From Lentisphaerae bacterium WC36 (GTDB taxonomy: Bacteria; Verrucomicrobiota; Lentisphaeria; Victivallales; SZUA-371): DNA of 64,000 nucleotides. Shown here in pieces: positions 1,448-30,194 of the stretch. The position numbers and the translations under genes are program-made. Positions within the stretch are counted from its first letter, which is position 1; each line of letters begins with the position of its first letter. The notes below the pieces were generated by a model, which saw nothing but the letters and a program-made list of their open reading frames with translations, was not told the DNA's origin and made no database searches. The stretch is from assembly GCA_020683205.1 (NCBI GenBank), contig CP085689.1, positions 2,412,230-2,476,229 on the forward strand, read 5' to 3'.

Positions 1448-2095
1448 TTAATTACTTTTGTTAATTATTGCCTTATCATCTTTTATATTGACTTCAATAT
1501 CATAAAAATTCTTTAAAGTTGCTATATTCCAGCCATTGGGCAAATAGTAAAACATTGTCATTGTTTGATTTAATTTAATTTCATCAAAATATAGAAAAAC
1601 TTTAGGAGGAAATTTCTCTTTTCCATTTGGTATTATAGTCGTTATTACTTCAATATTATTAATTTTATTACTAGATTTTTTTGATTTAACATTAAAATAT
1701 TCTTTATTTCCCAGAATAAAGGTATTTACAACACCATCTTCAAAATCATTTATCATCCCTTTTGATAAACCATAATAACTAGGAGGACATTTTTGATTTC
1801 TTAATGATACAAAAGTCCCCTCAAGTTTTTCCATAACAATACTATCTTTAGCTAAAATTTTGCTCTTCCCTTTTTCATCAATGGTATAAATTTTTGCCTC
1901 AACTAAATATAAGATTTTTTCTTTATCCAGCGTTTCGGCATTAATTGGAGTTGTGGAATAATCCACCTCTTGAACAAGTAAAGTGCCTACTATAGCTTTT
2001 TCATTTATATGCGATTTATTTAAATTACAACATCCTGTTAAATAAACTGTCAAAACAATAAAAACTACATTCAAAATAAACTTAAATTTGTTCAT
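1448..2095 (-). CDS. Predicted lipoprotein, paralogue of the 3839-4414 product
   Basis: A 215-residue exported protein. A hydrophobic signal segment ends in the lipobox YLTGC, giving lipidation at Cys22. AGGA precedes the ATG. The mature part shares a clear pattern with the lipoprotein at 3839-4414. Both have a strand with KIYTIDEKGKSKI / KIYAIDKSGKSKL, then a variable core, and both close with LNxTxxxFxYLPxGW. This indicates one small lipoprotein family duplicated around the GH16-like gene. Function is unknown; the mature domain looks beta-rich. It is the fourth gene of a tight minus-strand operon (16-base gap from the gene upstream). Confidence 0.75.
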   Translation of the reverse strand: MNKFKFILNVVFIVLTVYLTGCCNLNKSHINEKAIVGTLLVQEVDYSTTPINAETLDKEKILYLVEAKIYTIDEKGKSKILAKDSIVMEKLEGTFVSLRNQKCPPSYYGLSKGMINDFEDGVVNTFILGNKEYFNVKSKKSSNKINNIEVITTIIPNGKEKFPPKVFLYFDEIKLNQTMTMFYYLPNGWNIATLKNFYDIEVNIKDDKAIINKSN

Positions 2096-2111: not shown

Positions 2112-2768
2112 TTAATTCACTTTTTTTAATTTTGTTACTTTAAAAGTTTTAATTATCTGTTTAAAATCTTCAAGCAAGGCTTGATTGCTTGTTTTAATAG
2201 TAACATTAACAATGAAACCATCATTATTAATCATTGTGCCAGAAAAAGCATATGGACCTCCAAAAGACATTTCAGCAAATTTTTTATTCCATGATGAATT
2301 TTTACCTATACAAGAATAACCTTGCGAATTTTCTGTTTTAAAGTCAAAAAATTTACCATCTTTAACAAAAACCTGTGCGAACCTTTTAGTTGTTGAAATC
2401 ATCATATCTTTTGATAGCAATGGATTTACTCCAGTAACTGTAAAAACAATTAAAGAGTTACTTTCATCATCGGTTTGTATATAAAAAGCTTTTATCATAT
2501 CCTGCATTTTTTTAATATTTTCATCAATATTTTTATCTTTCACAAGTGATTGAACATGACTATCACAATGCATTAGATACTCTTTTTTAGTGACGATTTT
2601 CAACTTCTTAGTTGTATTATTAACAAATGAAATCTTAATACTACCATCAGAATATGTCACCAAATTATTTTGTGTTTTACTTTTAAAAAAAACAACCGCA
2701 AAAATTAGTCCTACGGCTAAGCAAAAAGTCGCAGCTAAACTCAACAAAATTACTCTATTATTTTTCAT
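2112..2768 (-). CDS. Membrane-anchored protein of unknown function
   Basis: A 218-residue protein with one N-terminal transmembrane segment (about residues 7-28) acting as an uncleaved anchor or signal peptide; no lipobox is seen. The extracytoplasmic part is mixed alpha/beta with a central ITTKRFAQVFVKDGKFFDF-like strand pair and no known catalytic motif. It lies between the GH16-like gene (18-base gap) and the lipoprotein at 1448-2095 (16-base gap), so it belongs to the same transcription unit and probably the same envelope function. No family could be named. Confidence 0.7.
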   Translation of the reverse strand: MKNNRVILLSLAATFCLAVGLIFAVVFFKSKTQNNLVTYSDGSIKISFVNNTTKKLKIVTKKEYLMHCDSHVQSLVKDKNIDENIKKMQDMIKAFYIQTDDESNSLIVFTVTGVNPLLSKDMMISTTKRFAQVFVKDGKFFDFKTENSQGYSCIGKNSSWNKKFAEMSFGGPYAFSGTMINNDGFIVNVTIKTSNQALLEDFKQIIKTFKVTKLKKVN

Positions 2769-2786: not shown

Positions 2787-3809
2787 TTATTTTTTATTTT
2801 TAGAATTCCCATCTTTATATACACGAATATAATCTACTTGCATTTTTACTGGGAAAATTTTATCATCAATAACTGGACTCCAACGACCGCCAATAATTAA
2901 ATCTAAATACAGACAAAATTGCTGATCAAAAGGCCAATACTTTAAGTCCTTACCCAAATCCTCATCTTTTTTAATTAATTGGTACAACTCGCCGTTAAAA
3001 TAAAATCTTAGCTCGCATTCATCCCACTCCATACTCCAAACATTAAAATCATTATCCATCTTCTCGCCATAGACTCTGCAATCCCAACGACTTTTTCCAG
3101 AAAAAACAGTGGTTACAAAAGAATTCTGGAGCTGACCTGTATAAGCCATCATCAACATTTCGCCACAGTATGGCCATGATAACGTATCATGTTTACTATT
3201 AATCACCGATAATTGACTCCAAGCTCCACTACCTGATTTAACCTTTGCCCTAATATCAACCTTTCCGTAGGTAAAATCAAATTTATTTTCTGACTTAAGC
3301 CGCCCTGATGTGTATTTGGCAAACTGTTGCTCTAACTTATGCTTACTCCCTTTTTTATAATTACTATTTGGATACTGTTCTTTATGGGCTTCTAAAACTA
3401 AACAACCATTTTCAACACGTACATTTTTAGGGCGTAAAGTGTAACAAGATTGTGCATCATTACGACGATAACCTTCAGCATAGGTCCATTTCTCAGGGTT
3501 TGGTTGCCCCCCCTCATTGAATTCATCAGACCAAATTAATTGCCAATTATAGCCCTTTTTGATATCAACTTTGCTAAAATTATAATTTTCATAATATGAA
3601 TGACAACCTGACTTTTTCTTAGCCTTATTAATACTTTTTTCTTGAATATATTTCTGTTTTTTATTAAAATGTGTTTGTTTATTTTTGTCTGCTTTGTTTT
3701 GCGATAAAGCATCCTGATATTTAATATTAATACTACTTGTGCAACCATTTAAAACTGTAGCTAACAACACTAAAAAAAACACTTTCATTTGATTTTCAAA
3801 TTTTTTCAT
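2787..3809 (-). CDS. GH16-fold lipoprotein lacking two of three catalytic acids
   Basis: A 340-residue lipoprotein. The ATG at 3809 is preferred to an in-frame TTG at 3818, because AGGAG ends only two bases before that TTG. The lipobox VLNGC gives Cys23; a Lys/Gln-rich linker runs to about residue 68. A concanavalin-like GH16 fold follows: WSDEFN, CYTLRPKNVRVENG, TSGRLKS, YGKVDIRAKV and the closing VDYIRVYKD. In GH16 endo-glucanases, agarases and carrageenases the active strand reads E-x-D-x-x-E. Here residues 217-222 read EMLMMA, so the nucleophile Glu217 remains but the helper Asp is Leu219 and the acid/base Glu is Ala222. Hydrolysis is therefore unlikely; glycan binding or an envelope scaffold role is inferred. 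Lipoproteins related to each other flank it. Confidence 0.85.
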   Translation of the reverse strand: MKKFENQMKVFFLVLLATVLNGCTSSINIKYQDALSQNKADKNKQTHFNKKQKYIQEKSINKAKKKSGCHSYYENYNFSKVDIKKGYNWQLIWSDEFNEGGQPNPEKWTYAEGYRRNDAQSCYTLRPKNVRVENGCLVLEAHKEQYPNSNYKKGSKHKLEQQFAKYTSGRLKSENKFDFTYGKVDIRAKVKSGSGAWSQLSVINSKHDTLSWPYCGEMLMMAYTGQLQNSFVTTVFSGKSRWDCRVYGEKMDNDFNVWSMEWDECELRFYFNGELYQLIKKDEDLGKDLKYWPFDQQFCLYLDLIIGGRWSPVIDDKIFPVKMQVDYIRVYKDGNSKNKK

Positions 3810-3838
3810 TGAATTCAATTCTCCTTCTAATTATTATT

Positions 3839-4414
3839 TTATTTAAACTTCACATCTTCTGCTTTCATTAAAACTTTTCTATCCCAACCTTTTGGCAAGT
3901 AGTGAAAAGACTCAAACGTTCTATTCAACTGTTCTTTATTGCTATATACACTATCAAGTCTTGGCAATTTTTTAAACTTTTCATTATTGCCTATAATAAC
4001 TGCACGACAACTCACCATAACTTCATTTTTTGCTAACTTTAACTTAGATGATTTTACTGCATCCTGATTTAAAATCAAGCATGATAATTTATATATTGGA
4101 TTTTCTGGGTTATAATTATCATTTAAAGCTACAGTTGCTTCTTTATTCCACACTGAAGTAACCCTTGGTGAATATATTAGCTTACTTTTACCGCTTTTAT
4201 CTATTGCATATATTTTACATGACACCAGAACCATGGCATTTTTATTAATTTTACTGCTTTTGATTATTTTCCCTTTTGCATTAAGTTGTTGAACTTTAAC
4301 AAAACCTTGTAGGGCTACCTCATTTTTATCAGAATCTCCACAAATAGCACAACCTGTAGCTAATCCTGTAAGCAGACACAAAACAACTCCAATAAATAAT
4401 CTTAAACGTTTCAT
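3839..4414 (-). CDS. Predicted lipoprotein, first gene of the GH16-like operon
   Basis: A 191-residue lipoprotein. The start at 4414 is chosen because GGAG sits seven bases upstream; the in-frame ATG at 4426 overlaps that ribosome-binding site. The signal segment ends in GLATGC, giving lipidation at Cys22. The mature domain shares the KIYxIDxxGKSKL strand and the C-terminal LNRTFESFHYLPKGWD block with the lipoprotein at 1448-2095. It heads a four-gene minus-strand unit with gaps of 29, 18 and 16 bases. Function is unknown; the paralogy and the GH16-like neighbour suggest a shared envelope-associated complex or glycan-binding role. Confidence 0.75.
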   Translation of the reverse strand: MKRLRLFIGVVLCLLTGLATGCAICGDSDKNEVALQGFVKVQQLNAKGKIIKSSKINKNAMVLVSCKIYAIDKSGKSKLIYSPRVTSVWNKEATVALNDNYNPENPIYKLSCLILNQDAVKSSKLKLAKNEVMVSCRAVIIGNNEKFKKLPRLDSVYSNKEQLNRTFESFHYLPKGWDRKVLMKAEDVKFK

Positions 4415-4470
4415 ACAAAACTCCATTTTGTTAAATAAATTTAAAAATGCTTTAAAATATAGACAAACTA

Positions 4471-4594: not shown

Positions 4595-6484
4595 CTACTT
4601 AATTTCATCAAAGATAATACACGCTCCTCCTCCTGCAGCCAAATTTAATGATAAAGAAGTCTGATTATCAACATTTTGCTCTTGTTGCTGATAAGATTCT
4701 TTATTGCTTTTATAATGAGTCTCATCCGTATCGGTAAAAATCTTTGCTTGGTAGTTTTTATTTTCTAGAAAATTTAATGGAACTTCAACGGTACGTTTAT
4801 AATTACCATTAACAACCGCTAATAACCATTGGCCATGCTTATTTTTACGTGCAACTGCAATATATTTATCAAACTCAGCCTTTACCGTTTTACTCTGCTG
4901 CCAAGGTTGTTGCTGTAAAGCGATAAATTTAAATAGTTCAGAATGTTTTTTATAGGCATCAGCCGCATCTGGAAGCACTACAAGCCCACTAAATGCGACT
5001 AAAGTTCGTGCGGTCTCTGCAACAATCGTTGAATTAATTTTTTGAAAAACTCGTGGACGCTTTGTAGTTGTATTCAAGTCAAAAAAACCATTAGTCATAT
5101 CAATTGGTCCAGCAATATTATCGACCATAACGATGCGCAAAAATCCTTGCGGATCATATGATCTTTTAGCATCAGCTTGAGCATGGCAAAACTCCTTAGT
5201 TACTGCATTTGGATAAGTATTAAATTCACCTGTTGGCAAAACTGGGTTATCATGGAAATCAATCATTAAATGATTTTTAGCACATTTTTCAATTAACATT
5301 TGAGTTTTAGCAATCTTGTTTTGTTGTCCTTTCACCCTCAAAAAGCCATATTTAACTCCTGCAACTCCTTTTTTATGATACATAGCAAAAACTTTATCAA
5401 TATCGTAATTATTTGAAGCAACATCATTTAAGTAAAGCAAAATTTTTACGTCTTTTTTCTTAGCATAATCAAGTAATGTGTTAATGCGATTCCACTGTGA
5501 TGGATCTAAAGGATTTGATTTAGGGTTGAATTCATGACCATACCAGTTTGCATCAAGCAATAAATATGGAACTTTTGTATCATGTGCAAAATCAACAAAC
5601 CTTAGCCATGATTCCAAATTTAATCCATATTTAAAACCATCATCTGCAGTATAACCCCATGCTCGCCAATCCCAAAAACAGACTCCTGGTTTAACCCACT
5701 TAAATTTTTCTTGATTAGCAACTGGGTTTAAATTTGCAATAGTGTCGCTATCCAACAATGAATTAATATTATCACTCAATAAAAATACACGCCAAGGAGA
5801 GTGTTGCTGATTTTTATATTTTACAGTTGTAGAAAAATAAAGTTCATTATCATTTTTTACCTTAAAATCTAAAAAATTATAATTTAAACAATTTGCTTCA
5901 GTTAAAGAAATAAAATATTTAGGTATCTTAAAATCATTTGATAGTAATATAGGGGTGCGTAGCTTATTTTTAAATTTAGTCAACTTTGCTGGAGTTTGTG
6001 GCGAATTTTCACCTCGATAACAAGTCGCTATCATCTTTTGAGTTAGTAAAACTTCACCATATTCAGTAAAATTTTTTACTGGAAAATTATTTTTTAAATT
6101 ATATCTAAAGGCAATGGCATCGTTATATATTCTAAAAGTTAAACCTGTAATATATGGATTTTTTTTATCAGCACTAAAAGTAACTTCAGAATAATCATTA
6201 TCTACTACCGCACGTTTGCCCCATACAACTTGCACCTTTTCTGAAACATTTTTTTGTTCTAGAAATTTTAAATTCGCAATTTTATTTTTAGTTTTAAATG
6301 ATAGATTTTTAAGAATTAATAACTCGCGATTATTACGGCAAAACTTAAAGCTGCTATTTGCATAATTAAAGTGTAGTGAATTTGTTCCATCAACAGATGT
6401 AAATTTTTTTGTAACTTGACAATCATTTGCCTGAACGCCGACAGCGCTTGCCAGTATCCCAATCAAAAATAATTTCTTTTTCAT
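4595..6484 (-). CDS. GH97-family secreted protein with altered active site
   Basis: A 629-residue exported protein: MKKK signal peptide with likely cleavage after VQA (residue 19), an N-terminal beta-sandwich, a TIM barrel from WVKPGVCFWDW (residue 263), and a C-terminal beta domain. This is the GH97 architecture (alpha-glucosidases/alpha-galactosidases). In the window's other GH97 (18556-20547) the barrel carries KIDFL with the nucleophile Asp, HGAYKPTG, and ESVLGLE ending in the acid/base Glu. The aligned positions here are KYGFL (Gly380), HDNPVLPTG, and EFCHAQA (Ala437). Both the retaining nucleophile and the acid/base residue are missing. It may be inactive, bind sugar only, or use other residues. 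AAGGA precedes the start; terminators flank it, so it is transcribed alone. Confidence 0.85.
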   Translation of the reverse strand: MKKKLFLIGILASAVGVQANDCQVTKKFTSVDGTNSLHFNYANSSFKFCRNNRELLILKNLSFKTKNKIANLKFLEQKNVSEKVQVVWGKRAVVDNDYSEVTFSADKKNPYITGLTFRIYNDAIAFRYNLKNNFPVKNFTEYGEVLLTQKMIATCYRGENSPQTPAKLTKFKNKLRTPILLSNDFKIPKYFISLTEANCLNYNFLDFKVKNDNELYFSTTVKYKNQQHSPWRVFLLSDNINSLLDSDTIANLNPVANQEKFKWVKPGVCFWDWRAWGYTADDGFKYGLNLESWLRFVDFAHDTKVPYLLLDANWYGHEFNPKSNPLDPSQWNRINTLLDYAKKKDVKILLYLNDVASNNYDIDKVFAMYHKKGVAGVKYGFLRVKGQQNKIAKTQMLIEKCAKNHLMIDFHDNPVLPTGEFNTYPNAVTKEFCHAQADAKRSYDPQGFLRIVMVDNIAGPIDMTNGFFDLNTTTKRPRVFQKINSTIVAETARTLVAFSGLVVLPDAADAYKKHSELFKFIALQQQPWQQSKTVKAEFDKYIAVARKNKHGQWLLAVVNGNYKRTVEVPLNFLENKNYQAKIFTDTDETHYKSNKESYQQQEQNVDNQTSLSLNLAAGGGACIIFDEIK

Positions 6485-18555: not shown

Positions 18556-20547
18556 ATGAAAAAAAACTTACTATTTAGTAGCTGCCTAGCACTTCTTTAT
18601 TTAAGTTCAACCAACTTATTAGCAGAAAGTTATAGTGTAAAATCTCCTGATAAAAAATTAGTTTTTACATTTGACTTTGAAGACAAGAACTTAAGTTATT
18701 CAATTGAGGTTGATAGAAAAAAAACAATTGTTAATACACCAATTAGTATGACTATTGACAATAAAAAATATCCTCAAAGTTCTCAACAGCCTACCATTAA
18801 ACGTTCAAGTGTTAATAAAGTTTTCAAACTACCTGTCAAAAATATTAATTCCAAAATTACTGAAAACTACAATGAAATAATTTTAAAATTTGACAATAAT
18901 ATAGCAGTAACTGCGCGAGCGTATAATGAAGGAGTCGCATTTCGTTGGGAAACAATGTTTAACAAGAATGAAATTTTAATTGGTGATGAACAAAATTTAG
19001 TTAATTTTGCTAAAGATTTTGCAATTTATTATCCTCAATTAAACGGCAGAAATTTTATTTCTCACCAAGAAAATAAATACCATTATTTTAAGAAACTAAG
19101 TAAAATTTCACCAAAACTAGCAAAAATGAGAATGCCTGTCCCAGTACTAATTTGCTTAGATAATGACAAAAAAATGTTAATCTCAGAATCAGATTTAGAA
19201 TCATATCCAGGATGGTATTGGAAAAAATCTGATGCTAAAGCACTACAATTTTCAAGCGAATATCCGAAATACCCGTTAACTTTTAAGCAAACTTCATTCC
19301 GAACTGTAGAGCCTGCAAAACGTGCCAACTACATTGCTAAAGTTGCTGGTTCTAGAACATACCCATGGCGCGCGTTTTTAATTGGCAATGATAAAGACTT
19401 AATGGTAAACCAATTAATTTACAAATTAGCATCACCATCACGTATCAAAGATACATCATGGATTAAACCAGGAAAGGTACAATGGGACTGGTGGCATGCG
19501 ATGTATATTAAGGATGTGGACTTCAAAAGTGGCATTAACACACAAACATATAAACATTATATCGACTTTGCGGCAAAACATGGCAATCAATATGTTATCC
19601 TAGATGAAGGTTGGAGCTTAAAAGGTAAAGAAAATTTGCTTAAAGTAGCTCCTAATATGGATATTCAAGAAATTTGTGATTACGGTAAAAATAAAGGAGT
19701 AGGAGTTATTTTATGGACTACAGGTATAGCATTACATCATAATTTTGATAAAGCGTTTAAACAGTTTGCAAAATGGGGTGTGGCTGGGCTAAAAATCGAT
19801 TTTCTAGTGCGAGATGACCAAATTATGGTTGAATGGTGCTACAAATTTTTAAAGGAAGCTGCTAAACACAAAATGGTTGTCGATTTCCACGGTGCTTATA
19901 AACCTACTGGTTTTTCACGCACATATCCAAATCTATTAGCTTGTGAATCTGTGCTTGGGCTTGAACAATACAAGTGGAAAGGCAAATTAGCAAATCCAAA
20001 ATATGACACTATTATTCCGTTTATTAGAAATGTTGTAGGGCCTATGGATTACACACCTGGTGCAATGAAGAATCTTCACTTAAAAGATTACAAAATCAAT
20101 TATAGAGAACCATTTAGTATTGGTACCCGCTGCCACCAATTAGCAATGTATGTTGTCTATTACAGCGGTTTACAAATGTTAGCAGATTCGCCGACTAGCT
20201 ATCGATTAAATCCAGTTGCGATGCAATTTTTAGATAGAGTCCCAGCTGAATGGGATAAATCAATTGCACTTGCTGGCAAAACTGGGGAATATGCGATTAT
20301 GGCACGCAAAAATAATTCAACGTGGTTCGTTGGAGGTTTGAATAACTATGATGAACGAGAGGTGGTTATTAAGTTAAATTTTCTTGATGATAATAAAGTT
20401 TACGCTTTAAATTTATATTGTGATGGCGATAACATTGCTAAAAATGCACAAGATACCAAAGTAGTAGTGAAGCAAGTACGCAAGAACGATGAAATTAAAG
20501 TGAAAATGGCAAGCGGAGGGGGCTTTGCAGCAGTGTTAAGCAACTAA
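18556..20547 (+). CDS. GH97 glycoside hydrolase, retaining alpha-galactosidase type
   Basis: 663 residues with a cleavable signal peptide (cleavage likely after LLA, residue 23). It shows GH97 architecture: beta-sandwich, TIM barrel from WIKPGKVQWDWW, and C-terminal beta domain ending KMASGGGFAAV. GH97 enzymes cleave alpha-linked galactose or glucose residues. The retaining-type nucleophile Asp is present in KIDFL (Asp415) and the acid/base Glu in ESVLGLE (Glu470). These correspond to the residues assigned in the retaining Bacteroides GH97 alpha-galactosidase, so this copy should be active. Ca-ligand type Glu/His residues (HGAYKPTG) are intact. A single-gene unit with its own promoter and terminator. 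Confidence 0.92.
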   Translation: MKKNLLFSSCLALLYLSSTNLLAESYSVKSPDKKLVFTFDFEDKNLSYSIEVDRKKTIVNTPISMTIDNKKYPQSSQQPTIKRSSVNKVFKLPVKNINSKITENYNEIILKFDNNIAVTARAYNEGVAFRWETMFNKNEILIGDEQNLVNFAKDFAIYYPQLNGRNFISHQENKYHYFKKLSKISPKLAKMRMPVPVLICLDNDKKMLISESDLESYPGWYWKKSDAKALQFSSEYPKYPLTFKQTSFRTVEPAKRANYIAKVAGSRTYPWRAFLIGNDKDLMVNQLIYKLASPSRIKDTSWIKPGKVQWDWWHAMYIKDVDFKSGINTQTYKHYIDFAAKHGNQYVILDEGWSLKGKENLLKVAPNMDIQEICDYGKNKGVGVILWTTGIALHHNFDKAFKQFAKWGVAGLKIDFLVRDDQIMVEWCYKFLKEAAKHKMVVDFHGAYKPTGFSRTYPNLLACESVLGLEQYKWKGKLANPKYDTIIPFIRNVVGPMDYTPGAMKNLHLKDYKINYREPFSIGTRCHQLAMYVVYYSGLQMLADSPTSYRLNPVAMQFLDRVPAEWDKSIALAGKTGEYAIMARKNNSTWFVGGLNNYDEREVVIKLNFLDDNKVYALNLYCDGDNIAKNAQDTKVVVKQVRKNDEIKVKMASGGGFAAVLSN

Positions 20548-22040: not shown

Positions 22041-25000
22041 TTATTGGTCAAAAAATTCTTGAACTTCATCAAAATTCTTGGTCCAATCACTAAACGTATA
22101 ACTAATTGTCGCAAAGAAACCATTAACTATTAAGTCATTATTATAGCGCCCTTTATAAGCCATCTGGAATTGAACATTACTATTCCACTCAACCCCAAAT
22201 CCAGCCTCTGTTGCAATCGCCCAAGGTGCACTTCTTGCTGTAACGTGTGCAACTTCGCCATCGGCATTACTAATATCACCACTAACGTTATTACCAGTAA
22301 ATGTTTGCACCCAGTGTGTTGAAACATTTGGTGTAATAATAAAATTATCACTTACACGGTAACTTTTTGCTAAACGCAATCCAAAAACACCATCAACAAA
22401 ATTATGATTGATATCTTTATATTTCAATTCAAAAATACGCTCACCAGCGTCTTCAGAAACATTTTGGCTATGCAACCATTGATAATTGAAACCAACTTCT
22501 GGTAAAATATCAATCACCTCAAACTCTTGACGATAACCTAAACGAAGTTGCCCTCCTACGCCCAACGAATCATAATGCGCTGTGGTTCGCATATTTTCAT
22601 TCAAACCACGATATGCTCTTAAATCATTAAAACCATAGTTGAAGTTAGTAACACCAGTCGCATAGAACTGATCATAAGTATACGCTCCATAAGCACCAAA
22701 CTGAATAATATTTTGAATCAAGGCATCATTCCCATATCCACTACCATTAAAATGAGCATTATTATTTGCCCATCCTCCATAAATACCGACCAAACCATCT
22801 TCAAAGCGTTGATCCATACCTGCTAAAACTCCTCCCGCTACAGTTGTATATCCAGCTCGCGAAGCACCATCTTTTTGGCGACTATAGTAATTTACCCCCC
22901 TCACCCACACTGCCAAGCCATGTTCATCACGCAATGGGTCAATTGCTTTAGCATCATTTAATTCAATATTATTAATCAAATAAAAGTGAATATCATCTTG
23001 AAACTGTTGTACTAATGTACGTTGCATTTGTAGCCCTTGAGCAACATAATTATTTTTTACCTGAGCCATATCAGTCATCAATTCTAAACGTATTCCGTTG
23101 CCATCATTAACTAATGTTCCCTTAAGCATTGAATTTTCAACATTTACTTTGGTTTGACTTAAATTAACATTCTTCGTAACCCCATCAGCAGCTCCAATGA
23201 CATACACAGGTTTTGATAAATCCATATTAGAAGCTAAATTTGCATTAACTGTAACTGGTCCACTTAATGTTAACGAACCAGTTCCGCCATCATTTCGCAC
23301 ATAAATTGGCGCTAAAGTTAAACGGTTGCCACTGTTGTAATTTGACCCATAATTTGCATTAATTGTTCCACCTGTAACGCTCAATGAATTGGTATTTAAC
23401 TGATTATCAGTTGAAGCTGTAAACGATCCACCACTCATACTAAAAGTTGTAGTCATCAAATCACTATTTAAAACAATTCCACCATTCGTTAAATTAATAA
23501 TATTTGCTGTTGATGATAAATTATTACCACTTGAAACATCACGCACATACCATGTTCCTGTATTGCTTTTATTTATAGTACCACCGTTAAAAACTGCAAA
23601 TTCATCATCGCTGATACTGTTAATATTTAAAATATTTGAGTCTTCAGCAGTCGCGTAATTAATATTACCATTCAAATCTGAGCTACTAACAACTTGATTT
23701 CCCACCAATCTATCTGTTAAATTAATGATGAATTCCGGAGCGGTCACATCTATAGCATTACCATTTGAAGCAGTAATTGAACCTGTATTATCAAACTCCG
23801 ATCCACCAGTACCAGCGTCTTTTAGTTCAACAGCGTTTCCATTGGCAACGGAAATTGTTCCTTCATTTTCCACTTTGGTTCCTGTACCAGTTGTGCCAGA
23901 TTTATTAACATCAATACCAATCACTGAAATAGTATCATCCGTACTGCTAATTGAACCACTATTAAGAGCGTCTCCTCCAGTTACCATTAATCCTACACTA
24001 TTGTTGCCATTAAGATTAATTACTCCAGTTTCTTCATTTGTAATATCTTGTCCACGAATAGCAATAGTATTTTCACCATTCGCATTTATAACTCCGCTAT
24101 CATTTGGGTCATTTGGATTTTGTCCGTTAATTGAACCGTCTCCATCTAAACCTACGGCTCCAACTCCATTTAAATTAATAGTATTCCCACTAAAGTTAAA
24201 AAGATTGGTTCCTTGCATTGCGATAGAATCATCCCCGTCAACATTTATTGTTCCAAAGTTTTTGACGAGATCACCACTTATGCCAATTGCTTCATCAGCA
24301 AAAATATTGATGATATTATTATTTGCACTATTGTCTCCGTTAATGGCAATTGCTCCAGCAGTACTTACTCCAACAGTTTCTAAAATATTTATTGTTCCAA
24401 AATTCTTATTATTTTCCCCATCAACACCAATACTATCTTCTGTATATATGTTAATTAAACCTTCATTGTTTGAAAAATTACCAACAATACCTTTCGTGTT
24501 GGTTGCAGTTGGTTCAACATTACCGTCAATGTCTGCTCCTAAGTAAAATGTCCCTTGATTAACTACATTATCTCCAGCCTCAATAATACTATTTGCGCTA
24601 TCTGCATCAAGTTTTGCATCAGGACCAATAATAGTTCCATTTCCTTTGATAGCTATTGCATTTTCTCCAGTAACATTAATATTACCCATATCATAAGTAA
24701 CAAAATCTCCCTCAATACCAATTGCATTCTCACCCGTTACATTGATAACAGAACCATTTTCTAAAGTTGCATAGTCTCCTTGAATACCAACGGCATAACT
24801 ACCTTCAACATCAATATTACCCCCTGCTTTGTTAACCGCATTATCTCCAACGATACCAATTGCTCGGTCCCCTACGCCTGTTCCGTCATATGTAATTGTA
24901 ATAGTACAATCTTCCGCATTTATAGCATTAGCTCCCTCAATACCTACAGCATTTTTTCCACTGACAACTATATCACCTTCATTAGTAGCAGCTTCAGTTG

Positions 25001-28000
25001 ATATTGTACTATCAGATACCACTCCTTTTGCATTTTCTCCACTGACCGTAATAGTGCCTAAATTATTAAAATCATCTCCTTTTATCCCAATTGCGTTTGT
25101 ACCAGTAACATTTATTTCTCCAGAATTTTCAAATTCATCTCCTTCTATACCAATAGCGCTACTGCCAATTACATTAATTTCAGCTTCACTTCCAGCACTA
25201 TAAAGATTACTACCTTTCATTCCAATGGCATTAGCTCCTTCAATATCAATTTTGCCCCAATTAATATGACTATTACCATACACGCCTATTGCATAATCCC
25301 CTTCAACATCAATTAACCCCGTAGCCGTATTTGTTATCACAAAACCATCACCTAAGTCTGGATTATTGCCAGAAATACCTATCGCAGCATTACTTGCATC
25401 AGCAGCATCATAAGTAATAGTAATAGTTTTTTGATTTTGTGCATAAGATGCCGCATCATCCAACAAAATACCAACAGATTTTTGTCCTTGAAGATTAATA
25501 ATATTTTCATTGACTGTATACCCTGCAGTGTTTTTTATCCCAATACCATTGGCGCCATCAATATCTATAGTACCTTTGTTTATGGAATTTCCCCCCTGCA
25601 CTCCAATAGAATCAGTTCCAGATATTTCAATATCTTCATCATTAACAAAATTGTTTCCAACTACACCTGTTGCACCATCTCCAAAAATAAAAATATCGCC
25701 AATGTTTTTGGCATTATCTCCTTTAACACCTATTGAATCATCACTAAGAACAACAACTTGCAATTTATTTGTGAAATTGTCACCAACCACACCTGTAGCA
25801 TTAGTTGCAGAGACATTTTCATTGTAAAGACCAGTTCCAGCATCATAATATCCACCAACTGCAATACGTCCTTCATTAATATGATTATCCCCGCCAATAC
25901 CATTTGCATATGCTCCATTGACATTAATGATTCCTGTTGAAGCATTAGTTGTTACATAAGTTGAGCCACTGGCCTTATTATCGCCATAAACTGCATATGT
26001 ATTTCCTTCAGCTGTATCACTATATGTGACACTGATTACTCCAGAATTTTTTGTGAAAGCATTACTATTAGTTTTCATTCCAATTGAATCTTGACCATTT
26101 ACCGTGATGGTAGAATTTTGATTATTAAATACAAAACCAGAGCCAGCATTATCAATACCAATACTCGAGCCAGAGTTAATAGTAATAATTCCATTTTGAT
26201 CAATAACTCCTCCTCCCAAGTTTTGAACAGCAGTAAAATCTGTGGCACCATTATCTGAGATAATTGTTCCAGTATTTTCAATACGCCCTGTAGATTCATT
26301 TATGACAGCAAAACCACCAGACCCTGCTGAAGCAGTTATTGTTCCAGCATTAATAAATGTTCCAGTAGTTTGATTTCGTACTCCAATACTATTATCTCCG
26401 CTAATATTAATATCAGCATTTTCTTCGTTAATAGCAGCTCCAGATCCTTTATTATAAATACCTTCGGCTAAACTTCCCGAAACATTAATCGTTCCATAGT
26501 TATAGGTTGGTCCACTGAAAAAACTGGCCATACCATTGGCGTTTTCCCCAGTAACATTAATTTCAGCATTTGTATTATCTGAGCTATCACCATTATATAG
26601 AGTCCCATTTTGTCGTGAAAACATTCCAATGGACTCCGTAGCGCTTGCATTTATAGTTGCATAATTTCGTGATGTGCCAAAATTATATTCATTCATGCCA
26701 ATGGATGTTCCACCAGTTAAATTTATTGTTCCATAATTATATGTTTGATTACCAGCTGAGGCCGACGCAACCATACCATTAGCGAAACTACCTGCAACAT
26801 TAATCGTTCCAAGATTAGTAGCTTCAATACCTTCCATGCCACTAGCCGAATTACCATTGACATTTATGACTCCAGTAGCAGTATTTATATCGCCTGTACC
26901 ATTTGTACCAATTGCCCGATCATCGGTTAAATTTCCAGTTCCTGGACTGCTATTAGTACTATTATAATTGACATTAATTGTGCCTTGATTTTCCTCTGAA
27001 TCCCCATTCAAACCTAAACTATTTGCCGTCAAAACATAAATTGTTCCCTTATTAATGGCATTAGTTCCACGAATTGCAAAAGCATCTGTTGCATCAGGAT
27101 TAGCAACCACACTTGATGTATCAGGGTTGTAGTATCCGCCAACTACTATTGTTCCTTCATTTACAGCATTACCACCATCAATACCGAAGGCATTTTTTTC
27201 GTTTACATTAATTATAGCAGTAGAAGTAACAGTTGTGCCATCGCCCAAAATTGCTCTTGAAAATTCAGAATTCAAAGTAATAGTTCCTTCGGAGTAAATT
27301 ACATTAGCTCCATCAACAGCAACTCCACCATATCCCGTTACATTAATATTAGAGCCATTTTCCAAAGTTATATTATCTCCACAAATACCTACAGCAAATA
27401 TTCCATTAACATTAATTTGTCCCCCAGCCCTATTAATTGCATTATCACCTAAAATTCCAAATGCTCTATCGTCATAACCTGGCGCATCATAATTAACATT
27501 TATTGTTCCATAATTTTCAGCATTGTCACCTTCAATACCAACGCCATATGCTCCATCAATATTAATTACCCCTCCAGCTTGATTAACAGCACTATTCCCT
27601 GAAATTCCCACGGCTTTATATATTGAAGCAGGAGAATCATATGTTATATCTATTGTTCCAGCATTAGTTGCACTATCACCTTCAATACCAATTGAATTTT
27701 CGCGAGTGACAGAAATTTCTGCTCCTGAAGAATTAGTAGCATTATTACCATTTATTCCAACACTCTGAAATCCATCAACATTAATTACCCCTTTATTTTC
27801 TCCATTATTTCCTAAAATACCATCATTTCGACCACCAGAAATATTAATCACTCCAGTAGTATCATTCAAAGCATCATCACCATCAAGTCCTATATTATCC
27901 AATCCAGTTACATTTAAAATTCCTTCATTAATTGGTCCAGCACCGACAATCCCCGAAGCCCCACCTATTTCATTATTTGCCGTTACAGTACCAGTATCAT

Positions 28001-30194
28001 TATTATAAACTCCACCAACTGTGATTGTACCTTGATTTTTACCACTATCTCCTTTTATCGCAGCTGCATTGTTTGAATTTACATTTATATGCCCTTCAGA
28101 AAAATTTGTTACATCATCACCTTCAAAAGCAACACTGTCTTTAGCATTTAATGTAACAGTTCCATAATTTTTGATATCGTTTCCAATTACAACTCTACCT
28201 TGTTCATTATTTATTTCAACATCAACCCCACTATTTATATTAACATCATTTCCCTTAATATAAGTTGCACCAACTGCACTTTCAGAAATTTCAGTCATAT
28301 TACTGAAAAACAGTCCAGTTAAAGTAGATGCGCCACTTGTTTCAAACGCAACCGAATTATTCCCATTTAAAATTATATTTGGCTCAGAGTGATAATCATA
28401 ATAAAGTTGACCATAAACTGCTGTTGAATTATCTCCATTAACAACGATTTGTCCATGTTTGCCAGATTCATTGAAATCAATTAATTCATTAGTTAAATAT
28501 ACTCCATAAGAATTTTCCCCATTTACTTCAATATCGCCAATATGATCCACATAATTACCAATGATTCCTTCCGAATAAATACCTTTAGAATTATCTCCTT
28601 TTACTTTTATAGTTCCTTCATTGAGAAGCTTGTTCCCCTTAAGTCCAATATTATTGTTACCATCAACAATGATTTCACCCTTATTTTGAGTTAAGTTTCC
28701 AAGAATACCAACATTATTTTCACCTTCAATTTTTAAAACCCCATAATTGACAAACCCATCACCATTTACCCCAATAGCATTTTCAACATAATCAACAGAA
28801 CTGAAAGAAAACCCATCTGGCGCTTGGTATGCTAAGCTACTAATATTAATATTTCCCTCATTGACATGATAATCTCCATCAATACCAATGCCATAATCAC
28901 CATTAACATTAATTGTCCCATCCGTAGTATTTGTTACTAAGTATTGACCTTCAGAGTCAGTAACATTATCTCCATGTATGCCGCGCGCCATTTGATAACC
29001 AGTATCGTCAGTAGCGCTATAATCTAAATTAATCGTTCCAGAGTTTGACACTGCCATTGTTCCAGTAGTACTACTAGGATCAAGATTGCCAGTACTAACA
29101 ACAGCACGTCCTCCGTTTGCTAATACTTGAATAGTTCCTCCTTCATAAATCACATTATCTCCATAAACACCAATACTATTCAAGGCGGTATTATCAAGGC
29201 GAATTAAAGATTGATCGCCAAGCACCGCATTGTCACCCTCAATACCAATTGCATATCGCCCACTTACATTAATAATACCAGCCGATCCAGTAGATTCACT
29301 ATATGCAGCATTAACAGCATCATCTCCTTTTATTCCAATTGCCGCATTTGTATAGTCAGTTCCATCAAAACTAACATTTATCCTACCATAGTTTTCAGTG
29401 TTATTACCAGCAATGCCAACACCATCTTGTTGCGAAATATTTATTGTTCCACGGTTAATAGCACTATCACCACTAAGCGCAGTCATGTTAGAAAAATTGG
29501 TTCCGTAATTTATTGTTCCATTATTGATTACCCCAGTTCCCTGTAACCCAATTTGATTATCTCCTCTCAAGAAAAAATTAACACCCTCAGCTATTTGCAT
29601 ACCTTCACCTTGTAGCCCTATAGCGCCATCACCAGTTAAGTTCACAAAATTTTGACGATCATAAATATAATTTTTCCCTTTAATTGCTACAGCATTCGTT
29701 CCAGAAACAGTAATAGTTCCGCCATTATCAGCAAAAATTGTATTCCCAGAGCTTCCACTAGCATCCACACCAATAGCAGATTCACCACTAACTGTTAATG
29801 TAGAGCCCGACACTAAGGATGCATTATTGCCAACAATTCCAAGTCCATAGTTACCAATAACATTAATATCACCATACTGACCATTAACCGCATCATCACC
29901 TTGAATAGCTGTTGCAAAGTCACCAGCAGCAGAAGACCCATTATAATTAACATTAATTACGGCACGATTCGCACCATCTAAGCCATTATTAGTTGAGCCA
30001 TCGCCCGTTAATCCCACACCGCCTTGGGTATTAACATTAATAGTACCAGTATTATCTTGAGCAAAAGTTGGAATAATATTCAATAACGCAGCATAAAAAC
30101 AAAAACAAAAAAATGTTGATTTTGACATATATTTTATACTATTAATGCAAAATAACATTAACACAACATAGCGGTTTAAATTGCCTTTTTTCAT
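22041..30194 (-). CDS. Giant repeat-rich autotransporter (type Va secretion)
   Basis: 2717 residues. The start at 30194 is supported by AGGAGA a few bases upstream. The signal peptide is unusually long: about 22 extra residues precede MSKSTFFCFCFYAALL, with cleavage near TFAQ (residue 46), resembling extended autotransporter signals. The passenger (to about residue 2420) is built from short repeats of the type NxGTINVxGxNAIGIxGDxAxN, expected to form a right-handed beta-helix exposed on the cell surface. The C-terminal barrel domain begins near AVWVRGVNYYSRQKDG and contains the usual GIYGGWANN and GAYGAYTYDQFYATG strands. A beta-signal-like FFATISYTF is followed by 16 more residues. Probable adhesin or aggregation factor. 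Confidence 0.9.
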   Translation of the reverse strand: MKKGNLNRYVVLMLFCINSIKYMSKSTFFCFCFYAALLNIIPTFAQDNTGTINVNTQGGVGLTGDGSTNNGLDGANRAVINVNYNGSSAAGDFATAIQGDDAVNGQYGDINVIGNYGLGIVGNNASLVSGSTLTVSGESAIGVDASGSSGNTIFADNGGTITVSGTNAVAIKGKNYIYDRQNFVNLTGDGAIGLQGEGMQIAEGVNFFLRGDNQIGLQGTGVINNGTINYGTNFSNMTALSGDSAINRGTINISQQDGVGIAGNNTENYGRINVSFDGTDYTNAAIGIKGDDAVNAAYSESTGSAGIINVSGRYAIGIEGDNAVLGDQSLIRLDNTALNSIGVYGDNVIYEGGTIQVLANGGRAVVSTGNLDPSSTTGTMAVSNSGTINLDYSATDDTGYQMARGIHGDNVTDSEGQYLVTNTTDGTINVNGDYGIGIDGDYHVNEGNINISSLAYQAPDGFSFSSVDYVENAIGVNGDGFVNYGVLKIEGENNVGILGNLTQNKGEIIVDGNNNIGLKGNKLLNEGTIKVKGDNSKGIYSEGIIGNYVDHIGDIEVNGENSYGVYLTNELIDFNESGKHGQIVVNGDNSTAVYGQLYYDYHSEPNIILNGNNSVAFETSGASTLTGLFFSNMTEISESAVGATYIKGNDVNINSGVDVEINNEQGRVVIGNDIKNYGTVTLNAKDSVAFEGDDVTNFSEGHINVNSNNAAAIKGDSGKNQGTITVGGVYNNDTGTVTANNEIGGASGIVGAGPINEGILNVTGLDNIGLDGDDALNDTTGVINISGGRNDGILGNNGENKGVINVDGFQSVGINGNNATNSSGAEISVTRENSIGIEGDSATNAGTIDITYDSPASIYKAVGISGNSAVNQAGGVINIDGAYGVGIEGDNAENYGTINVNYDAPGYDDRAFGILGDNAINRAGGQINVNGIFAVGICGDNITLENGSNINVTGYGGVAVDGANVIYSEGTITLNSEFSRAILGDGTTVTSTAIINVNEKNAFGIDGGNAVNEGTIVVGGYYNPDTSSVVANPDATDAFAIRGTNAINKGTIYVLTANSLGLNGDSEENQGTINVNYNSTNSSPGTGNLTDDRAIGTNGTGDINTATGVINVNGNSASGMEGIEATNLGTINVAGSFANGMVASASAGNQTYNYGTINLTGGTSIGMNEYNFGTSRNYATINASATESIGMFSRQNGTLYNGDSSDNTNAEINVTGENANGMASFFSGPTYNYGTINVSGSLAEGIYNKGSGAAINEENADINISGDNSIGVRNQTTGTFINAGTITASAGSGGFAVINESTGRIENTGTIISDNGATDFTAVQNLGGGVIDQNGIITINSGSSIGIDNAGSGFVFNNQNSTITVNGQDSIGMKTNSNAFTKNSGVISVTYSDTAEGNTYAVYGDNKASGSTYVTTNASTGIINVNGAYANGIGGDNHINEGRIAVGGYYDAGTGLYNENVSATNATGVVGDNFTNKLQVVVLSDDSIGVKGDNAKNIGDIFIFGDGATGVVGNNFVNDEDIEISGTDSIGVQGGNSINKGTIDIDGANGIGIKNTAGYTVNENIINLQGQKSVGILLDDAASYAQNQKTITITYDAADASNAAIGISGNNPDLGDGFVITNTATGLIDVEGDYAIGVYGNSHINWGKIDIEGANAIGMKGSNLYSAGSEAEINVIGSSAIGIEGDEFENSGEINVTGTNAIGIKGDDFNNLGTITVSGENAKGVVSDSTISTEAATNEGDIVVSGKNAVGIEGANAINAEDCTITITYDGTGVGDRAIGIVGDNAVNKAGGNIDVEGSYAVGIQGDYATLENGSVINVTGENAIGIEGDFVTYDMGNINVTGENAIAIKGNGTIIGPDAKLDADSANSIIEAGDNVVNQGTFYLGADIDGNVEPTATNTKGIVGNFSNNEGLINIYTEDSIGVDGENNKNFGTINILETVGVSTAGAIAINGDNSANNNIINIFADEAIGISGDLVKNFGTINVDGDDSIAMQGTNLFNFSGNTINLNGVGAVGLDGDGSINGQNPNDPNDSGVINANGENTIAIRGQDITNEETGVINLNGNNSVGLMVTGGDALNSGSISSTDDTISVIGIDVNKSGTTGTGTKVENEGTISVANGNAVELKDAGTGGSEFDNTGSITASNGNAIDVTAPEFIINLTDRLVGNQVVSSSDLNGNINYATAEDSNILNINSISDDEFAVFNGGTINKSNTGTWYVRDVSSGNNLSSTANIINLTNGGIVLNSDLMTTTFSMSGGSFTASTDNQLNTNSLSVTGGTINANYGSNYNSGNRLTLAPIYVRNDGGTGSLTLSGPVTVNANLASNMDLSKPVYVIGAADGVTKNVNLSQTKVNVENSMLKGTLVNDGNGIRLELMTDMAQVKNNYVAQGLQMQRTLVQQFQDDIHFYLINNIELNDAKAIDPLRDEHGLAVWVRGVNYYSRQKDGASRAGYTTVAGGVLAGMDQRFEDGLVGIYGGWANNNAHFNGSGYGNDALIQNIIQFGAYGAYTYDQFYATGVTNFNYGFNDLRAYRGLNENMRTTAHYDSLGVGGQLRLGYRQEFEVIDILPEVGFNYQWLHSQNVSEDAGERIFELKYKDINHNFVDGVFGLRLAKSYRVSDNFIITPNVSTHWVQTFTGNNVSGDISNADGEVAHVTARSAPWAIATEAGFGVEWNSNVQFQMAYKGRYNNDLIVNGFFATISYTFSDWTKNFDEVQEFFDQ
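23720..30090 (-). repeat. Intragenic hierarchical repeats of the autotransporter passenger
   Basis: The coding strand repeats a unit of about 20-25 codons many dozens of times. A larger order is also visible: a block with a VGGYYxxxTGxV-type insert recurs near residues 727, 1021, 1448 and 1887, and blocks reading AGGxIxVxGxYAVGIxGDxxTLENGSxINVTG recur with similar spacing. Copies are diverged, not identical. Confidence 0.7.

Follow-up and report, generated by a model that had tools for sequence, protein, structure and literature searches.

Gene organization of the locus

The window, by which we mean the whole stretch of 64,000 nucleotides analyzed here, carries a run of five genes on its minus strand. 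A GH97 gene (6484..4595) heads the run and is followed by four genes with gaps of 16–20 bp, and the third gene from the top encodes a GH16-fold protein (Table 1). Its product is 340 aa long when translated from the ATG at 3809, or 343 aa if the in-frame TTG at 3818 is the start; a lipobox and a charged linker precede its single GH16 domain. The PF00722 (GH16) profile recognized it with 54 bits, for a cut-off of 22 (E 1.9e-14), and its paralogue with 62.8 bits. An N-terminal signal and a lipobox cysteine were found by pattern match, and the lipobox has an unusual residue, Asn, at position -2.

Table 1. Position of the GH16-fold gene, of its main sequence features and of its small neighbours in the window (residues numbered from the ATG)
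Feature	Position	Strand	Evidence
GH16-fold gene, putative pseudoenzyme	2787..3809	-	Pfam, AlphaFold model and structure match
Lipobox LNGC, predicted lipidated Cys C23	3741..3752	-	Pattern match only
Charged K/N/Q-rich linker, residues 24–85, mostly low model confidence	3555..3740	-	AlphaFold model
S198-Q-L-S201 replacing P-A-[IL]-W; loss of W116 (T. maritima)	3207..3218	-	Alignment
W212, kept -2 subsite Trp (SCLam W139)	3174..3176	-	Alignment, PMC7961093
Former catalytic strand E217-M-L219-M-M-A222 (canonical E-I-D-I-M-E)	3144..3161	-	Alignment and codons
F236 in place of conserved His (T. maritima H151; SCLam H163, +1 subsite)	3102..3104	-	Alignment, PMC7961093
W310, kept +1/+2 subsite Trp (SCLam W240)	2880..2882	-	Alignment, PMC7961093
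Small lipoprotein, 195 aa, upstream, 20 bp from the GH16 gene	3839..4426	-	ORF list
Secreted or membrane-anchored protein, 218 aa, downstream, 18 bp from the GH16 gene	2112..2768	-	ORF list
Small lipoprotein, 215 aa, paralogue of 3839..4426	1448..2095	-	28% identity, E 8e-18

The 218-aa downstream protein is single copy in the genome, and no family scored above the Pfam cut-off for it. No relatives of the two small lipoproteins were found in 197 genomes of the class, and the structure model of this pair has a pLDDT of 59. The GH97 protein at the head of the run (4595–6484, minus strand) has the KYGF and FHD motifs of an outlier group of that family, which is devoid of the usual nucleophile and base (PMC2670981). 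At the position of the catalytic acid E532, termed invariant in the same study, it has an Ala, and two aligned relatives (L195 and L196) have a Ser; catalysis may thus be changed or absent in this glycosidase as well. Two other GH97 genes of the genome, one in the window (18556–20547, plus strand) and the other L197, have the retaining-type FHG motif. Further along the window (22041–30194, minus strand) lies the gene of a 2717-aa secreted protein with an autotransporter-like C-terminus and many repeats of the kind GVINVNGxxAxGIxGDNAxNxG, for which no Pfam match was obtained at E 0.001.

The fold is conserved

The AlphaFold model of the window protein, with a pLDDT of about 90 over most of the GH16 domain, has the beta-jelly-roll fold of the GH16 family and suggests an open groove. 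Its best structure matches were laminarinases; with that of T. maritima (3azx), the superposition gave a Z score of 31.7 and an rmsd of 1.8 Å over 235 residues, with a TM of 0.86 (target length). An earlier note, made from the sequence of the gene, had proposed a lipoprotein with a well-kept GH16 fold and a dismantled catalytic site, and the Pfam score together with the model agree with it as to the fold.

Two of the three GH16 genes of the genome have an altered catalytic motif

A PF00722 search of the source genome (one contig, 3.66 Mb) yielded exactly three GH16 genes, unlinked, at 0.70, 2.42 and 3.23 Mb. The copy at 0.70 Mb (G000:C1:704246-705214), called hereafter the sister copy, is 48–49% identical to the window protein. 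The third paralogue (L003, at 3.23 Mb) is 38% identical and has an intact motif, GEIDIMEY (WPKCGEIDIMEY).

Codons 217 to 222 of the window gene read GAA ATG TTG ATG ATG GCT. The nucleophile Glu of the ExDxxE motif is thus present (E217), the helper Asp is replaced by Leu (L219), and the acid/base Glu by Ala (A222). This reading, already given by the earlier note, was borne out by translation, codons and alignment alike. The sister copy, whose motif is GEMLLCAY (WPDCGEMLLCAY), has the same Leu and Ala, encoded by other codons (TTA, GCA). In a curated alignment of 88 rows, made of 85 relatives, the two altered copies and the T. maritima laminarinase, E-D-E was found in 86 rows and E-L-A in the two altered copies. 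One relative, L035, had appeared as an exception to E-D-E; this was an alignment slip, and its true reading is WPDAGEIDILEF.

The same Leu and Ala thus occur at a second, independent locus with other codons, and 86 of the 88 rows keep E-D-E, so that the change is due neither to chance nor to read error. A decaying pseudogene, or an assembly or base-calling artefact, might account for the loss of two residues and for the long stem branch reported below, but it is hardly credible, given that both loci have full-length open frames, that dN between the two copies is 0.48 with dS saturated, and that the new residues are conserved.

The two copies differ in their surroundings. The sister copy has an ordinary Sec-type signal at its N-terminus, without lipobox, so that the lipoprotein assignment of the earlier note suits the window copy and does not extend to its closest relative. 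Its neighbour, 27 bp upstream, encodes a secreted protein with a DA1-like peptidase region and Cys-rich, zinc-finger-like motifs. In this neighbour (L002, 2446–3558, minus strand, the same as L167, 10240–11352, minus strand) the Cys-rich motifs resemble LIM zinc fingers, and the peptidase region has HELAHDYF. From spacing alone, both the GH16 cluster and the sister-copy locus would be operons.

The cleft is rebuilt largely in the same way in both copies

The earlier note, right about the strand, had understated the damage, since many more conserved cleft positions are replaced. The relatives conserve 48 positions at a level of 85% or more; 30 of these are kept by each altered copy, compared with 45 by the intact paralogue. 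The replaced positions include, in T. maritima numbering, E47, Q49, P113, A114, W116, D134, E137, H151, N225, A227 and G234, and in most cases the new residue is identical in both copies. Under a stricter limit of at least 95%, which 32 positions reach, both copies depart from the relatives nine times and share the new residue in eight of these nine; at variable positions they share it in 31 of 98 cases (Fisher p 0.001). These shared residues favour constraint and support the view that the rebuilt cleft is itself maintained, though such sites may simply change slowly.

The subsites of the laminarinase SCLam are made up of N53, D146 and W129 (-1), of N53, H169 and W139 (-2), and of T161, H163, Q174 and W240 (+1) (PMC7961093). 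According to the alignment, the residues lost in the window protein are W129 (now S201), D146 (L219), E149 (A222) and H163 (F236). W116 of T. maritima is likely the -1 stacking Trp, by equivalence to SCLam W129 if one residue of gap is allowed. Kept residues are, besides the two tryptophans of Table 1, T234 (SCLam T161), N117 (SCLam N53; replaced by Lys in the sister copy) and, equivalent to residues of the Ca site, E96, G135 and D326. Both altered copies have also gained an Asp, D303, where relatives carry Asn. Judged from these alignments, the protein has lost its catalytic centre along with the contacts on either side, and has kept the fold and the outer stacking positions.

The cleft (SQLS, L219, A222, F236, I305, P312) could instead have become a protein–protein surface, the dead GH16 domain serving as a scaffold or partner, possibly of the small lipoproteins of the tight gene cluster. 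We consider this somewhat unlikely. Several cleft residues have changed from polar or charged to hydrophobic in both copies (D to L, H to F, A to I, G to P), and orphan secreted proteins are encoded 18–20 bp away, two of them paralogues absent from other genomes of the class, as would suit such a role. However, T234 and the two substrate-stacking Trp are kept, and the sister copy adjoins a different gene, that of the DA1-like protein, and has no such cluster around it.

A single loss before duplication

On a tree built with the catalytic strand masked, the window and sister copies group together (SH-aLRT 99). Their common stem, 0.86 changes per column long, lies inside a clade of intact enzymes of the same class. 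Their nearest relatives by tree path are L006 and L008, and the intact paralogue of the same genome is not the nearest. This sister grouping and its long stem point to a single loss of catalysis, before the duplication, with fast change accompanying or following it. The values of dN and dS given above mean that, since the duplication, the proteins have changed far less than the synonymous sites. Constraint on the fold, which the earlier note had described as purifying selection, is supported.

In a profile search with the two copies, covering the order (137 genomes), the class (197) and a draw of about 387 genomes from the phylum, both copies scored more than 630 bits and all other matches at most 203 bits. 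The clade therefore gained no third member from the 197 class genomes or the roughly 387 sampled across the phylum. The gene is also missing from the three partial genomes available for its own family. A search of named genomes with the single window protein gave no confirmed relative, and with the two-copy alignment it gave only relatives at most 36% identical (Bacteroidota, Acidobacteriota, Mycoplasmatota and others). A viral scan gave a single distant match. The L and A are thus conserved in a clade, as the earlier note had wondered, but a clade of only two paralogues of one genome. The refuting case named by the earlier note, close homologues with ExDxxE, does not hold for the closest homologue; the motif appears in relatives only from about 41% identity down.

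Possible role of the window protein

The explanation that we hold to be just probable is that the window protein is a maintained, lipid-anchored, non-hydrolytic GH16 protein of the laminarinase type, which would hold an oligosaccharide as a surface glycan-binding protein. Of its parts, the lack of hydrolysis, taken alone, is very probable, and glycan binding is a best guess. The ancestor would have been an active laminarinase-like enzyme, in which the -1 subsite and the catalytic dyad were rebuilt once, duplication then giving a second dead copy. The N-terminal lipid and the charged linker of about 60 residues would anchor the protein to the cell envelope, and the outer Trp platforms would hold an oligosaccharide chain in a cleft that no longer cuts. 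Persistence of an intact GH16 paralogue in the genome supports this explanation. Against binding as a shared function, the sister copy lacks both N117 (K) and the lipobox, so site and anchoring are only partly shared.

As to affinity, GH16 enzymes mutated at the nucleophile are good glucan binders (PMC7961093, PMC4606783), while laminarin is not bound by Rv0315, for want of subsite residues (PMC4606783). The window protein falls between Rv0315 and the binding mutants; since its -1 and +1 subsites are damaged, its affinity for glucan may be gone. A variant that we think unlikely is that rebuilding of the -1 subsite produced a site, conserved and in part hydrophobic, for a new ligand, either a modified glycan or a protein.

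Catalysis might also have been altered rather than lost, E217 acting with another proton donor (D303 or water) in a slow hydrolase, transglycosylase or lyase-like reaction. This is quite improbable: both copies keep E217 and have gained D303, but the nucleophile-positioning Asp and the -1 Trp are also gone, and, by Bacillus lichenase numbering, the N225 position (D303 here) may fall beyond the -1 site. In favour of altered catalysis, the catalytic residues of some pseudoenzymes are reported to have migrated (PMC10211241). Less probable still is a regulator or decoy of the intact paralogue, acting by substrate competition or by pairing. One intact and two dead paralogues do coexist in one genome, but the three genes are at unlinked loci, and on the tree the pair has nearer relatives than the intact copy.

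Relation to known GH16 proteins

Thermotoga laminarinases (3azx, 4dfs) and SCLam (6xof), which probably belong to GH16 subfamily 3, are 30–39% identical to the window protein in structure alignments. They have in common with it the fold, the Ca-site residues, the outer Trp positions and the nucleophile Glu, whereas the window protein has other residues at the helper Asp, the acid/base Glu, the -1 Trp, the +1 His and the NxExQ motif.

GH16 homologues that no longer cut are known. The insect beta-GRP/GNBP proteins have lost the catalytic glutamates and serve as binders (PMC6403176). These are animal immune proteins, and the likeness is an analogy only; the window protein has lost the acid/base and keeps the nucleophile Glu. 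A bacterial GH16 fold is that of Rv0315 of M. tuberculosis (4wzf; structure match Z 26.4), an inactive beta-1,3-glucanase whose inactivity was blamed on missing subsite residues and a wide cleft (PMC4606783). That protein is described as having the catalytic Glu positions, Glu-176 having been mutated (PMC4606783), whereas in the window clade the helper Asp and acid/base Glu are themselves lost. In two Neomarinimicrobiota loci (L105 and L112), an intact GH16 frame is accompanied by another with GEIDIMHYG, that is E-D-H, in which His stands for the acid/base Glu; this second frame may be a GH16 pseudoenzyme of separate origin, or the change may reflect a small deletion.

In the literature searched, chiefly openly available papers, no GH16 clade of bacteria turned up that combines the Asp-to-Leu and Glu-to-Ala changes with a kept nucleophile and a shared, rebuilt -1 site. 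The new pseudoenzyme group suggested by the earlier note would accordingly be new as a bacterial variant; dead GH16 homologues as such were already known from beta-GRP/GNBP and Rv0315, and the group has only two genes. The small clade and the putative ligand temper the weight of the finding. In practice, a glycosidase annotation relying on profiles only would label both altered genes laminarinases. If the -1 subsite does serve a new ligand, then, with the odd GH97 nearby, this lineage would be one in which secreted glycosidases are converted to binding proteins of the cell surface. The pair would offer a natural bacterial case, with one loss, a later duplication and an intact paralogue in the same cell, of how a GH16 cleft may be reused after cutting ends.
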